Shown: positions 21,780 through 29,755 of the stretch, piece by piece
Position numbering within the stretch: position 1 is the stretch's first letter
Layout of the letters: each line of letters opens with the position of its first letter
Assembly (NCBI RefSeq): GCF_021206925.1
Contig: NZ_JAJPRF010000002.1
Location: 62,001 to 126,000, forward strand
Reading direction: 5' to 3'
DNA from: Rhodoflexus caldus
GTDB taxonomy: Bacteria > Bacteroidota > Bacteroidia > Cytophagales > Thermoflexibacteraceae
DNA length: 64,000 nucleotides
The notes under the pieces: model-generated
Databases searched by the model: none
What the model was told of the DNA's origin: nothing
The model's input: only the letters and a program-made list of their open reading frames with translations
Translations under genes and position numbers: made by a program

Positions 21780-22298
21780 ATGCCCAAATATACTGCCCAT
21801 TTGCTGCTTGGCACAAACATGGGTAATCGTTGCGATTATTTACATTTTGCCCTGAAAGCGATTCAGGAACGGGCAGGATACATTTACGGCGTTTCACCTG
21901 TTTACGAAACTGCGGCTTGGGGGTTTACCGACCAGAACGATTTTTTAAATCAGGCACTGACGCTGCAAACTCATTGGCAACCCGAAGAATTACTGGCCGT
22001 TTTGCAAGAGATTGAACAACAGGCAGGCAGGCAGCGACTTGTTCATTGGGGGCCGCGAACGCTGGATATTGACATTATTGCCATTGACGATTTGGTCATT
22101 GAATCTGAACGGTTGGTAGTGCCGCATCCTGCCATGAGGCACAGGAGGTTTGTTTTGCAGCCCTTGGCAGACCTTGTTCCCGATTGGCGACATCCTGTAT
22201 TGGGGCTTACCTGCGAGCAGATGCTGGCACTCTGTACGGATGACACAGCCATAAAAAAATATGACGGTTGCGGTATTTTTGATTCTAAACGAATTTAA
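21780..22298 (+). CDS. folK: 2-amino-4-hydroxy-6-hydroxymethyldihydropteridine diphosphokinase
   Basis: 172 residues. HPPK signatures are clear: LLLGTNMGN, VSPVYETAAWG, FLNQAL, the RLVHWGPRTLDIDIIAID metal/pterin motif and VPHPAMRHRRFVLQPL. It transfers pyrophosphate from ATP to 6-hydroxymethyl-dihydropterin in folate synthesis. The gene is followed 29 nt later by the SiaB-like gene on the same strand. Confidence 0.96.
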   Translation: MPKYTAHLLLGTNMGNRCDYLHFALKAIQERAGYIYGVSPVYETAAWGFTDQNDFLNQALTLQTHWQPEELLAVLQEIEQQAGRQRLVHWGPRTLDIDIIAIDDLVIESERLVVPHPAMRHRRFVLQPLADLVPDWRHPVLGLTCEQMLALCTDDTAIKKYDGCGIFDSKRI

Positions 22299-22327
22299 GT
22301 ATAAATTGCACGTAAATTTTGCTAAGC

Positions 22328-22900
22328 ATGAGTGCTACTGAGCAGCCTTTCAGTATTTATCAATTTTTTAGCCAATTGAAGTCGCACCATTTTTCAATGG
22401 TCGCGCAGGGGCTGATTTCGCAGGATATCCTTTCACTAATTGCACTTAGTTTGAAGCGTCGGCCTGACAATGAGGTAGTTGCCCGAAGGCTGTTTGCTCT
22501 TGTTGTTGAGTTGTCGCAAAATATTTTTCACTATTCGGCCATCAAAGAATTTTCAGTAAAAGACCAGCGCGAAATCGGCGTTGGTATTGTAGCCGTAGGT
22601 GAGTCCGATACGCACTATTTGGTAGCTTCCGGCAATGTGGCACATACGGAAAGCGCCTCCTACATAGCCCGTCAATGCGACCATATCAATACGCTCGACT
22701 CCGAAGAATTGAAGCAATATTACAGAGAGCAGCGCCGACAACCTGCACGCGAGGGAAGCGTAGGCGGCAGCATAGGACTGATTGAGATAGCTAGAAAATC
22801 GGGCAGCCCTATTCACTACGAAATCATACCGATGGAAGATGGCAACGTGTTCCTTATTTTTGTTGCCAAAGTAAGCAAGTCGGTTTCTTATGCCGACTGA
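22328..22900 (+). CDS. SiaB family protein kinase (DUF6272)
   Basis: 190 residues from MSATEQPFS; a TTG three codons upstream is less likely. A GHKL-type fold is suggested by VVELSQNIFHYS (N-box-like) and EGSVGGSIGLIEIARKSG (G-box-like), with the LVASGNV strand between. In Pseudomonas aeruginosa SiaB phosphorylates SiaC. The next gene here encodes a SiaC/DUF1987 protein, which supports the assignment by context. No SiaA phosphatase or SiaD diguanylate cyclase is encoded nearby. Confidence 0.82.
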   Translation: MSATEQPFSIYQFFSQLKSHHFSMVAQGLISQDILSLIALSLKRRPDNEVVARRLFALVVELSQNIFHYSAIKEFSVKDQREIGVGIVAVGESDTHYLVASGNVAHTESASYIARQCDHINTLDSEELKQYYREQRRQPAREGSVGGSIGLIEIARKSGSPIHYEIIPMEDGNVFLIFVAKVSKSVSYAD

Positions 22901-22985
22901 CAACAATTTACATTGTTTGCTGCGTTATTTTATTGCATGTCTGTCTCCTGTCAGCAGGGAAAAATTACCGGAAACATACATATCT

Positions 22986-23369
22986 ATGGAGAACCTGTTC
23001 ATCAAAGCCGATACATTCATTCCCGAAATCAATTTTAATGCACAATCGGGAGAGTTGAATATCAGCGGTGAATCTTATCATGAATATACGCTGGAATTTT
23101 ACCAACCGGTTTTTAACTGGCTGGCGGAATATTTGAAAACACCCGGGCGCAATATTGTTCTGAATTTCCGCATGTCTTATTACAATACGAGCACATCGCG
23201 GCGCTTTTTGGAACTTTTTGATATGTTGGAAGAGTATCAAAAGCAGCAAAAAGGCACAGTTACCGTAAATTGGTACTACAAACCCGAAGATGTGGACATG
23301 AAAGAAAGCGGGGAGGAATATGCCGACGATGTAGCACTTACTTTCAACCTTATACCCCTAACAAAATAG
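22986..23369 (+). CDS. SiaC family regulatory phosphoprotein (DUF1987)
   Basis: 127 residues from MENLFIKAD. The DUF1987 pattern is complete: TFIPEINFNAQSGELNISG, YQPVFNWLAEYL, then LNFRMSYYNTSTSRRFLELF and a WYYKPEDVDM C-terminus. Thr68 in YYNTST lies where the phosphorylated threonine of Pseudomonas SiaC (T68) is reported. The kinase gene is 85 nt upstream. It likely acts as a phospho-switch controlling a partner protein elsewhere. The 3' end overlaps the M23 gene by 20 nt. Confidence 0.87.
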   Translation: MENLFIKADTFIPEINFNAQSGELNISGESYHEYTLEFYQPVFNWLAEYLKTPGRNIVLNFRMSYYNTSTSRRFLELFDMLEEYQKQQKGTVTVNWYYKPEDVDMKESGEEYADDVALTFNLIPLTK

Positions 23370-25943: not shown

Positions 25944-27620
25944 ATGGAAGCAACAGAACATAAATCATCGGTCAATTTTATTGAACAAATCATAGACAGT
26001 CATAACGAGTCCGGGCGTTTCCAGAAGCGCGTACATACGCGGTTCCCGCCCGAGCCGAACGGATATTTGCATATCGGCCATGCCAAGTCTATTTGCTTAA
26101 ACTTTGGCTTGGCTCAAAAATACAACGGCAAATGTAACCTGCGTTTTGACGATACCAATCCGGCAACGGAAGATGTGGAATATGTGGACTCTATCCGCAA
26201 CGACGTTCGCTGGCTTGGCTTTGAGTGGGACGGTGAATTTTTTGCTTCCGATTATTTTGACCAATTGTATGAATGGGCAGAACAACTTATTCGCAAAGGC
26301 AAGGCGTATGTAGATGACCAAACTGCCGAAGAGATAGCCGCTACGCGCGGAACACCGACCGTGCCAGGCAAGGAAAGCCCTTTCCGCAACCGCAGCGTCG
26401 AGGAGAATCTGGATTTGTTCCGCCGCATGAAGGCCGGAGAGTTTGATGAAGGCAGCAAAGTATTGCGTGCCAAAATAGATATGTCATCGCCCAATATGCA
26501 CATGCGCGACCCTGTGCTGTACCGCATCAAGAAAGCGCATCACCACCGCACGGGCGACCGCTGGTGCATCTATCCGATGTACGACTTTGCCCACGGGCTC
26601 AGCGATTCTATCGAGGGCATCACGCACTCTATCTGTACGCTGGAATTTGAAGTCCATCGCCCGCTGTATGATTGGCTGATTGACGAGTTGGGCATTTATC
26701 ACCCGCAACAAATAGAGTTTGCACGCCTGAATCTGGCCTACACGGTCATGAGTAAGCGCAAACTGCTCGAGTTGGTAGAAGGAAAATATGTTAGCGGTTG
26801 GGACGACCCCCGCCTGCCGACCATTTCAGGCCTTCGCCGACGCGGCTATACACCTGCTGCCATCCGCCATTTTGCCGATAAAATTGGCGTTGCTAAGCGC
26901 GATAACATAATTGACGTAGCTTTGTTGGAGTTTTGCATCCGCGAAGATTTGAATAAAACGGCCCCCCGCACAATGGTTGTTTTGCGTCCTTTGAAAGTGG
27001 TGATTACCAACTATCCCGAAGGACAAACTGAGATGCTTTCGGCTGTTGTAAACCCCGAAATGCCTGAAATGGGCAGTCGCTCTGTACCGTTCGGAAGAGA
27101 AATTTACATTGAGCAGGACGACTTTATGGAGAACCCGCCCAAAGGTTACTTCCGCCTGACACCCGGAGGCGAGGTGCGCTTAAAATATGCTTATATCATT
27201 CAGTGTCAAGAAGTTGTAAAAGACGAAAACGGCAATGTTACAGAGTTGCGCTGCATCTACTTCCCCGAAAGCAAGAGCGGTTCGGATACTTCGGGTAAGA
27301 AAGTGAAAGGAACGCTTCACTGGGTAGCCGCACACGATGCGGCAGAAGCAGAAGTGCGCCTGTACGACCGCTTGTTTACTATCCCCGACTTATCGGAAAT
27401 TCCCGAAGGCCAAGACTGGAAGGATTTTATCAATCCGAAGTCGCTGGAAGTAGTGAGCCATGCCAAGATAGAGAAGAGTCTTTTGCAGGCTGAATCGGGT
27501 AGTTTGTGGCAGTTTGAGCGGTTGGGTTATTTCTGTACCGACCCGGACACTACTCCTCAAAAGCCCGTATTTAATCGCACAGTTACGCTGAAAGATACTT
27601 GGGCAAAAGCAGCACATTAA
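25944..27620 (+). CDS. glnS: Glutaminyl-tRNA synthetase
   Basis: 558 residues, class I synthetase. The HIGH motif is in [16 protein letters not shown], the acceptor-binding region contains DDTNP, and the KMSKS loop is [22 protein letters not shown]-type sequence (here starting APRT) marks the beta-barrel anticodon-binding domain, which distinguishes GlnRS from most bacterial GluRS. It charges tRNA-Gln with glutamine directly. The gene is divergent from dnaX; a histidine kinase gene follows by 23 nt. Confidence 0.96.
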
Positions 27621-27643
27621 ACAATCGTATAAATATCGGGGGG

Positions 27644-29755
27644 ATGCCACGTACTTTCATTAAGATAACCTTATGGATAACCGCCGGATGGTTACTAACC
27701 GCTAACGTGTGGGCGCAGCGCGAAGTTTACAACCAAATACTGGAAGACTTCAAAACTGCTAAAACCATTAATGACAGTGTCGGGTATTATGTCCGACTGG
27801 CTAGTACCAGTCGGGCTTTTAGCCTGAAAACAGCTATCAGCCTTTCCAAGAAAGGGCTTGCCGTTGCATGGCGCGCCGGTGATACGCTGTCGGTGATAAA
27901 ATTGCTCAACATGCAGGCTTCTGCGTATATCTTGCGCTCCGATTACGATTCGGCAACCATGCAGTTAGAGCGTGCCCTCGCTTTACAGCAGGCGGTTAAT
28001 GACAGCGCCGAGTTGGCTACCACATACAGCCATTTTGGTTTTATCAACAGGCGGCAACACAATTACTCCAAAGCGTTAGATTATCATTTGGATGCGCTGA
28101 AAATTCGCAGTCGGATTAAAGACTTCGGTGGTATCAGCATTTCTTACAACAATATCGGCGATGTATATGCCGACCAAGCAAAATATGAGCGCGCGGCAGA
28201 GGCATACATGGACGGTATTCGGTATGCGGTGCAAGGGAAAGACGACATGCGGCATATTTCCAATCTGGCAGATTTAGGACTTGTTTACTACGAACTGAAA
28301 AAATATCCCGAGGCAATTAAAATTATTCGGGAAGCCCTGACAATTTCCGACCGCATTGGCGGCACATATAAACTCCCTGAGATTTACACAACGCTTGCAC
28401 GTATCTATCAGCAACAAAAAAAATATGACGATGCGCTGGAATATCTCAACAAAGCCATTGAGCATAGTCAAAAAAGCGAATTTGTAACCAATGATGTGAA
28501 CGTGTACGGCGAAATGTCAAAGTTATACTGGGAACTTGGCAAGCGGGATTTGGCAATCAACAGCGCACTGCAAGGGCTGGAACATGCCGTGCAACACGAC
28601 AACATCAATTTGCAACTCCAACTTTCCTACACGCTCTACGAGTATTACAAAACCCTGAATAATCCGGCCAAGGCGTTAGAATACTACATTATTTACCGCG
28701 ATTTAAAAGAAGTTGCCAATGAGCGCCAACAAAATTTACAGTTGGCCGAACTTGAAACCCAGTACGAATTGGAGCGGATTCAGCGCGACCATCAGGCCAA
28801 ATTGACGGAAAGTGAACGGTCGTTAAAAAATCAACGCATTGTATCAATAGCAGTTATGGTAGCCTTGGTGGCTTGTATTGCCCTTATCGCCATTTTGATG
28901 AGGAACAATAAAGCCAAAAAGCGCCACAATGAGGTGTTGATAAAGCTCAACAAAGAACTGAAACGCCAGCAGGAAAATGTTTTATCGCTGAAAGAAAATC
29001 TGGAACGCACCGTTGAAAAACGGACGGATGAACTCAAACAAACCATTGACCAACTGACTGAACAAAATCAGGATTTACAGCAGTTCTCATACATCATCTC
29101 TCATAACATACGCTCTCCGATTGCACGCATCGCCGGATTGATTGATATCATTAAAATTGAAAACAGTGGTACCCAAGCAATCAACGAAGAGATTATTATG
29201 CACTTAGACAAGGCAGTTATCAGCCTTGATACGGTCATCCGCGATTTGAACCAGATTCTTTCCATCCGTAAGGGCATCAATAAATCCAAAGAAATGATTT
29301 CTTTTCAGGAGGTCTTTGAATGGGTAACACTTACGCTGGAAAATGAAATAGCATTGGCAGGTGCAAAAATTTATCAGGATTTCAGCCAATACCCGGGTGT
29401 GTATTCAATTAAGGCATACCTACAAAGCATTATGTACAACCTGATTTCAAATGCCATCAAATACCGCCGCACCGATATTGAACCGCAAATTCATGTGATT
29501 TCTTACAGAAACGGCGATTACGTTTGCCTTGAAGTAAAAGATAATGGCATCGGTATTGACTTACAGGCCATAGACCCCTACAAAATTTTTGGGCTGTACC
29601 AACGTATGCACACCCACGTAGAGGGCAAAGGTCTGGGACTGTATTTAGTTAAGTCGCAGATAGAGGCGCTCAACGGCAAAATTGAGCTCGAGAGTGAGTT
29701 GATGAAGGGTAGCAAGTTTACTGTTTACTTCCCCGCTCACACGCTTTTGATTTGA
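27644..29755 (+). CDS. TPR-containing membrane sensor histidine kinase
   Basis: 703 residues from MPRTFIKI, beginning with a signal peptide (WLLTANVWAQ). About 350 residues of periplasmic TPR repeats follow, for example YSKALDYHLDALKIRSRI, KYERAAEAYMDGIRYA and KYDDALEYLNKAIEHS. A single TM (VSIAVMVALVACIALIAIL) leads into a coiled coil and a kinase core. The H-box is SYIISHNIRSPIARI, the N-box YNLISNAIKYR, and the G-boxes DNGIGID and GKGLGLYLVK. It should autophosphorylate on the H-box His and pass phosphate to an unlinked response regulator; none is encoded here. The signal is probably sensed through the TPR region. An upstream start at 27599 lies inside glnS and is unlikely. Confidence 0.93.
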   Translation: MPRTFIKITLWITAGWLLTANVWAQREVYNQILEDFKTAKTINDSVGYYVRLASTSRAFSLKTAISLSKKGLAVAWRAGDTLSVIKLLNMQASAYILRSDYDSATMQLERALALQQAVNDSAELATTYSHFGFINRRQHNYSKALDYHLDALKIRSRIKDFGGISISYNNIGDVYADQAKYERAAEAYMDGIRYAVQGKDDMRHISNLADLGLVYYELKKYPEAIKIIREALTISDRIGGTYKLPEIYTTLARIYQQQKKYDDALEYLNKAIEHSQKSEFVTNDVNVYGEMSKLYWELGKRDLAINSALQGLEHAVQHDNINLQLQLSYTLYEYYKTLNNPAKALEYYIIYRDLKEVANERQQNLQLAELETQYELERIQRDHQAKLTESERSLKNQRIVSIAVMVALVACIALIAILMRNNKAKKRHNEVLIKLNKELKRQQENVLSLKENLERTVEKRTDELKQTIDQLTEQNQDLQQFSYIISHNIRSPIARIAGLIDIIKIENSGTQAINEEIIMHLDKAVISLDTVIRDLNQILSIRKGINKSKEMISFQEVFEWVTLTLENEIALAGAKIYQDFSQYPGVYSIKAYLQSIMYNLISNAIKYRRTDIEPQIHVISYRNGDYVCLEVKDNGIGIDLQAIDPYKIFGLYQRMHTHVEGKGLGLYLVKSQIEALNGKIELESELMKGSKFTVYFPAHTLLI

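Follow-up and report, generated by a model that had tools for sequence, protein, structure and literature searches.

What does a SiaB/SiaC-type partner switch control when it is encoded apart from the enzymes that complete the known pathway? This question is raised by two adjacent genes in the window, meaning the whole 64-kb stretch of DNA that was analyzed. The SiaABCD c-di-GMP pathway of Pseudomonas aeruginosa is recognized by a GGDEF-type SiaD that bears a SiaC-binding stalk and by a HAMP-PP2C phosphatase, SiaA, that is encoded with siaBC, and neither was found with the window pair. With slightly better than even confidence, we propose that the window genes constitute a working SiaBC partner switch that acts in trans on a client that is stalk-bearing and is not a diguanylate cyclase.

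A sequence-only reading of this DNA had placed a DUF6272 kinase directly upstream of a DUF1987 protein within positions 22328 to 23369, and both the gene order and the extent are borne out by protein families, by folds, and by a SiaC start based on paralogues (Table 1). The kinase (22328-22897) matches the Pfam family PF19788 (DUF6272) at E 1.2e-37 with 129.1 bits (cut-off 26.6), and P. aeruginosa SiaB, 6kko_A, is its match in a PDB sequence comparison (E 7e-18). When the two are aligned, the IEMTQNI box of the window protein supplies E61 and N65, and the glycine loop GGSIG is present. E61 is described as the predicted catalytic residue of SiaB (PMC7647112). Furthermore, E61, N65, N103, and G150 are invariant across 36 chosen SiaB proteins. 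An AlphaFold model (pLDDT 91) submitted to Foldseek returned 6kko SiaB first (E 4e-11) and SpoIIAB third (E 8e-3), with RsbW lower. By these family, residue, and fold tests, the predicted kinase is not degenerate; loss of its N-box or G-box residues, which had been named in advance as evidence against the switch, was not seen. A TTG codon at 22319 is a possible alternative start.

Table 1. Positions of the predicted switch components and the adjacent upstream gene in the window
Feature	Position	Strand	Basis
folK-like gene directly upstream of siaB (context, outside the switch)	21780..22298	+	family F2
SiaB-type GHKL serine/threonine kinase (DUF6272), predicted	22328..22900	+	PF19788, 6kko_A, AlphaFold/Foldseek
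SiaB landmark E61	22508-22510
SiaB landmark N65	22520-22522
SiaB landmark GGSIG loop
SiaC-type regulatory phosphoprotein (DUF1987), predicted, 127 aa from M at 22986	22986..23369	+	PF09345, 6kko_C
Thr68 codon, predicted phosphosite	23187..23189	+	residue count from 22986

The second protein matches PF09345 (DUF1987) at E 2e-43 with 147.3 bits (cut-off 24.5), and its PDB match is P. aeruginosa SiaC, 6kko_C (E 6.5e-15), so that the nearest solved structures to both proteins belong to the SiaB-SiaC complex 6kko. Its longest frame opens at 22890. However, we placed the start at 22986 because three paralogues in the genome begin at a MEN/MEI methionine that aligns with this position. Counted from there, the threonine of YYNTST is residue 68, as had been claimed, and the protein keeps Y65, N67, T68, and S69. 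In P. aeruginosa, T68 is reported as the site on SiaC that SiaA and SiaB target (PMC7647112). The two genes are separated by 85 bases on the same strand.

The host genome, which spans 40 contigs and 3.96 Mb and has a listed completeness of 100%, was searched for further components. It holds four SiaC and four SiaB proteins, which form four adjacent pairs. In addition to the window pair, there is one on contig 11, whose neighbors are an ABC1-family kinase and a protein of the TetR type. Downstream of another, at 430 kb on contig 2, are a coiled-coil protein of 164 aa that has two hydrophobic segments and a transglutaminase-like protein. The pair on contig 7 lies between a phosphatase of Cache-HAMP-GAF-PAS-SpoIIE architecture and a TerB-ABC transporter. 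The absence of a local SiaA holds for the window pair but not for the contig-7 pair, which has a PP2C of the SiaA kind alongside. The genome has 23 SpoIIE matches, and none lies on the window's contig. A Pfam scan (E 1e-4) of 20 of these proteins, several of which are partial at locus ends, identified TPR, GAF, PAS, 7TMR-DISM, MASE2, and Y_Y_Y sensors. The check for HAMP-bearing phosphatases suggested by the sequence-only reading was positive among these 20 for a contig-4 protein (L022) and for the full-length contig-7 protein.

No GGDEF match was found in the genome, although the same search was positive in 8 of 14 control genomes. The SiaC proteins are thus left without any SiaD to act on, in the window or elsewhere, and no co-regulated SiaA-SiaD set was found in another part of the genome. 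Across 291 sampled genomes of the order, SiaC occurs in 130 and GGDEF in 5, with both present in a single genome, and SiaC is therefore common where GGDEF is absent. These distributions support the earlier suggestion that the switch probably controls something else. Only a limited number of candidates per genome were scored, so that a high SiaC count is a minimum; G047 and G102 are among several genomes of the order with at least 14 SiaC matches (14 scored of up to 56 candidates).

A structural precedent for the client comes from the SiaC-SiaD complex, which is described in PMC8457831 as having SiaC Thr68 between two helices of the SiaD stalk, where it touches S82 and Q86. As reported there, Y65, N67, and S69 of SiaC touch Q86 and D83, and a second site on SiaD comprises S50 and Q54. 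SiaC-SiaD is the one family member with a solved client complex, and DUF1987 proteins are proposed in the same paper to commonly modulate adjacent proteins. In our host genome, the coiled coil of the 164-aa protein beside the contig-2 pair contains LLTSVSDRLQNKL. Stalk-like segments also occur beside or near SiaC in loci labeled Bernardetiaceae, Thermoflexibacter ruber, Bacteroidia, Cloacimonadota, Holophagaceae, and Acidobacteriota, the last on the opposite strand and past SiaB.

We compared stalk profiles with the PDB. Profile A3, in which two of the eight rows derive from a GGDEF protein, recovered SiaD (7e6g) at E 3.2e-9 with no other match below E 1, and the matched residues, 36-57 and 65-106, are the two SiaC-binding sites. 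A 16-row profile lacking GGDEF rows found SiaD at the right site at E 0.038, ranked under two kinetochore coiled coils. Profile A4, which was built from four membrane stalks alone, did not find SiaD up to E 10. Part of the 164-aa protein, used as a lone query against the PDB, did not find it either.

At E 0.001, A3 detects the stalk in 57 of the 291 order genomes, and every one of these also has SiaC. The hypergeometric probability of this co-occurrence is 1.9e-24 by genome and 1.1e-9 by genus, neither value being corrected for descent. Among 30 stalk loci examined from this order search, SiaC lies directly upstream on the same strand at 23, with spacing that ranges from an 8-base overlap to 147 bases apart. 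A hydropathy scan of the 30 stalk proteins found two hydrophobic segments in 21 and one in 9. At the A3 cut-off no stalk is detected in 73 of the 130 genomes with SiaC; thus, either stalkless clients exist or the profile misses some stalks.

Several kinds of output are joined to the stalk, namely GGDEF, histidine kinase, class III cyclase, and membrane parts. In one case SiaC is itself fused to it (L183:8152-9126, where SiaC, the docking stalk, and hydrophobic segments share one reading frame). Within the order, 14 proteins of 332 to 354 aa (one of 500) have Pfam HisKA and HATPase domains behind the stalk, and no SiaB or SiaC lies near them in the stretches examined. One of these kinases, L189, aligns with this genome's own 164-aa membrane stalk protein over residues 17-99 at 37% identity (E 1.4e-9). 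In a wider sample of the phylum, the stalk was found in 14 of 395 genomes at E 1e-4. The 22 stalk frames recovered there comprise 10 histidine kinases, 6 class III cyclases, 4 GGDEF proteins, 1 membrane protein, and 1 stalk alone; Pfam confirms all of the kinases and cyclases and three of the GGDEF proteins, the fourth (L250) being partial and judged by eye, and L237, which yielded no stalk reading frame, falls outside the tally. SiaB and SiaC adjoin a stalk histidine kinase at L240, L243, and L251, a stalk cyclase at L258 and L259, and a stalk GGDEF protein at L239, L242, L244, and L250, and SiaC without SiaB adjoins a stalk kinase at L256.

A point against our proposal is that HATPase scores are low (E 2e-7 to 5e-18) for the order's stalk histidine kinases; those of the wider phylum score higher. 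By eye, the ATP-binding G boxes of the order proteins (L181, L182, and L184-L194) look degenerate, reading GLELY or GTELY, for example, at a place where GLGL is usual.

We then asked which of these client types the window SiaC resembles. In a tree of 79 SiaB-SiaC pairs, the window pair groups with mostly Cytophagales pairs. A second tree was built from 161 distinct SiaC proteins, after removal of identical sequences and of reading frames that reach 400 aa. It places the window and contig-11 proteins in a clade of 42 (clade I, support 0.84). No member of this clade adjoins a gene for a stalk or TerB-ABC protein, within stretches that for some are only about 3 kb. A clan of 72 surrounding clade I (support 0.887, midpoint root) includes P. 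aeruginosa SiaC and all 11 enzyme-linked SiaC proteins (5 linked to GGDEF, 4 to histidine kinases, and 2 to cyclases) but none of the 29 other stalk-linked and none of the 28 ABC-linked ones.

A docking signature composed of the SiaD-contacting SiaC residues 29, 31, 79, 103, 107, 110, and 114 was compared among the same proteins, with linked effectors labeled by hand for both tree and signature. The window and contig-11 proteins read EYDDSED, whereas the stalk-linked and ABC-linked SiaC proteins of this genome read RIRDSDL and RLSDAEL. Clade I follows EY[D/T/N]DSED in 40 of 42 members, with E29, Y31, and D114 in all 42. Two of the four histidine-kinase-linked proteins have EYSDSED (the others have EFSNNEG and QYKDSDM), the cyclase-linked proteins have EYDDSDN and EFDDQEG, the GGDEF-linked proteins have QYRQTEH (four) or EYDRLED (one), and P. 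aeruginosa SiaC has DYDRLED. The 29 other stalk-linked proteins, which are mostly of the membrane kind though not each was checked, carry R29 in 28 cases and I, T, or S at position 31 in all; 24 of the 28 ABC-linked ones read RIKDADI. A stalk kinase unlinked to SiaC was verified in 14 genomes, and 13 of these have a SiaC of the EY..ED form among the loci examined; in the remaining one, G107, only another SiaC was examined.

In tree placement and predicted docking surface, the window SiaC matches the histidine kinase-, cyclase-, and GGDEF-linked proteins and not the membrane- or ABC-linked ones. This points to an enzyme as its client, most likely a histidine kinase, and the ancestral client was most likely a stalk-bearing histidine kinase of a type that sister genera retain. 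Two of the four histidine-kinase-linked and four of the five GGDEF-linked signatures are unlike that of the window protein, and the signatures may reflect descent and not client type. Two records labeled Thalassobius (L040) and Thalassovita (L049) bear SiaBC of the Cytophagales clade, with a neighbor family common to Flammeovirga and Flexithrix loci; these records are probably mislabeled bins.

No client adjoins the window pair. Upstream lies a gene that we take to be folK (family F2), and the order folK-siaB-siaC is repeated at 8 loci of related genomes, two of which (L037 and L219) are one contig. Recurring neighbors of clade I pairs track close kinship, with folK in the relatives of the window and other genes in Flammeovirga-like or contig-11-type loci, and no client-like neighbor family recurs. 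A motif scan of the 64-kb window revealed no [S/G]Dxx[Q/H] coiled-coil docking stalk, its sole match being presumably a signal-peptide-peptidase-like protein and not a stalk. In the same scan, the motif is absent from a TPR histidine kinase at 27599-29755. The window pair is therefore an orphan without an effector alongside, and its synteny is with folK only.

Genome-wide, the profile found one stalk protein, the 164-aa protein (L031:8756-9250), which has a coiled coil and two membrane helices and lies beside another pair. The four genomes searched for the genus, this one and those of three sister species, yielded no stalk enzyme, and the sole stalk protein found in each has the length of the membrane kind. 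Because the sole stalk protein found is of the membrane kind, the client of the window pair was not found in its genome. The search for DUF1987 partners proposed by the sequence-only reading named stalk-bearing proteins for the family as a whole but not this particular client.

Several candidates were set aside. A BLAST search with L189 gave 31 matches in the genome, most beginning past the stalk. Apart from the 164-aa membrane stalk protein itself, those that begin within the stalk region of the query are three kinases on contigs 17, 6, and 13; all three score poorly with the stalk profiles, and those of contigs 17 and 13, as read, are without the motif. Among short kinases, the nearest relative, a 254-aa protein on contig 1 (L260:10039-10803), also has no stalk. 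It is 29 to 34% identical to the stalk kinases and lies a few genes from what we take to be holA, a relative of which adjoins the stalk kinase of L188, so the two kinases are perhaps the same gene, one of them after stalk loss. Weak stalk-profile matches in the genome begin at profile position 22 or later, beyond the S-D of the motif, with the exception of a contig-18 protein that appears HlyD-like by eye and in which the motif is absent.

The gene pair, the retained kinase and phosphosite residues, the lack of any GGDEF match, and the recurring stalk with its tie to SiaC are observations; we infer the phosphorylation of SiaC, its docking on stalks other than those of GGDEF proteins, and the identity of the client. 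In the proposed mechanism, modeled on P. aeruginosa, SiaB would use ATP to phosphorylate Thr68 of SiaC, and a PP2C from another locus would strip the phosphate. Free SiaC would dock through its Y65-N67-T68-S69 face and alpha-3 helix on the parallel coiled-coil stalk of the client and thereby set its state, and phosphorylation of Thr68 would break this docking. The client would not be a diguanylate cyclase, and the ancestral one was most likely a stalk-bearing histidine kinase.

It is also conceivable, though we consider it unlikely, that all four SiaC proteins dock on the single 164-aa membrane stalk protein, such that four sensors would feed one client. This protein is the sole stalk found in the genome, SiaC copies exceed stalks in many genomes of the order, and the face that would contact the stalk is shared: of the 86 SiaC proteins that are in clade I or stalk-linked, every one has Y65, N67, and S69, and 84 have T68, with Ser in the other 2. 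Nevertheless, the remaining docking surface differs, at several positions in charge, with E29, Y31, D79, and D114 in the window protein versus R29, I31, R79, and L114 in the membrane-linked one, and clade I has kept E29, Y31, and D114, like Thr68, throughout its 42 members. Quite unlikely, in our estimation, is a client with no stalk at all, in which SiaB or SiaC would hold an anti-sigma-like regulator in the manner of SpoIIAB or RsbW. The ranking of these two kinases after SiaB in the Foldseek search favors this arrangement, as does the number of SiaC genomes in which no stalk was detected. However, the clade I pairs that were compared share no recurring sigma factor or other regulator as a neighbor, and the sole solved SiaC-client complex, as described in PMC8457831, uses a stalk.

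In SiaB of the contig-11 type, the glycine loop is shortened by four residues (DQDST----GL), whereas E61 and N65 are kept. The deletion is present at all five loci of this type that were examined (L030:9682-10248, L041, L042/L272, and L271; two of the five represent one genome), and an ABC1-family kinase and a TetR-type gene adjoin it in L030, L041, and L042. On sequence grounds, this protein is a possible pseudokinase of the SiaB family. A very improbable arrangement is that the window and contig-11 pairs form one unit in which the window SiaB serves both SiaC proteins and the contig-11 SiaB is a sink; the two SiaC proteins are 62% identical with the same signature and the loop deletion is consistent, but the pairs lie on different contigs.

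The favored reading, a trans-acting switch with a stalk-bearing client, can be set against related systems. Like P. aeruginosa SiaABCD, the window locus has SiaB adjoining SiaC and retains E61, N65, the glycine loop, Thr68, and the Y65/N67/T68/S69 face; unlike it, the genome has four pairs, no GGDEF protein that we found, and no SiaA beside the window pair. The stalk-linked SiaBC operons of the phylum involve the same families, and the window surface is one of seven positions off those of L240 and L243, but these operons include the stalk gene that is absent beside the window pair. SpoIIAB-SpoIIAA and RsbW-RsbV likewise combine a GHKL kinase with a small phosphoprotein, whereas the window pair belongs to PF19788 and PF09345 and has no linked sigma factor. 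The output of partner switching is also a signaling enzyme in HsbA-HsbD and BgrV-BgrR, where, according to PMC8457831, a STAS protein acts on a diguanylate cyclase; the window pair is neither STAS nor GGDEF. For Campylobacterota, it is suggested that c-di-GMP enzymes or a chemoreceptor may be under the control of PP2C, kinase, and STAS proteins, with SiaABCD cited (PMC9239204).

In the literature found, SiaC (DUF1987) appears as a diguanylate cyclase activator. Our search, which covered few subscription-journal papers, found no published account of this range of outputs on the SiaC stalk. We think it probable that SiaC is a general phospho-adaptor, in which a portable docking stalk lets one kinase-phosphatase switch control diguanylate cyclases, class III nucleotide cyclases, histidine kinases, and membrane proteins, with a surface code that separates paralogues and with the window pair being of the enzyme type. 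The code could, for example, assign E29/Y31/D114 to enzyme clients and R29/I31/I114 to membrane or ABC clients, and the window switch would act in trans although its cell makes no c-di-GMP by GGDEF enzymes. If the stalk is transferable, SiaBC would tie serine/threonine partner switching to two-component, cAMP/cGMP, and membrane signaling. Clients could then be sought by a sequence rule for the many SiaBC pairs that are unstudied, and the presence of several SiaC genes in bacteria without GGDEF, at least 14 in some genomes, would be easier to explain.

Other SiaC arrangements were observed. A TerB-ABC-ABC2 transporter (L029:5171-8272 and 28 further loci) lies near SiaC at 28 of the 161 distinct SiaC loci. 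Its first 270 residues, as an AlphaFold model, returned mainly FHA domains among the top 50 Foldseek matches (best E 5.8e-3), and what we take to be the usual phospho-Thr binding residues are not evident by eye in this FHA-like part. SiaC also occurs without SiaB after an rpsC-like gene, apparently in the S10 ribosomal protein operon (L210 and L048/L217; names by eye). Finally, one SiaB gene is followed by two SiaC genes at L046/L215 and L216, and two SiaB-SiaC pairs stand in tandem at L211.
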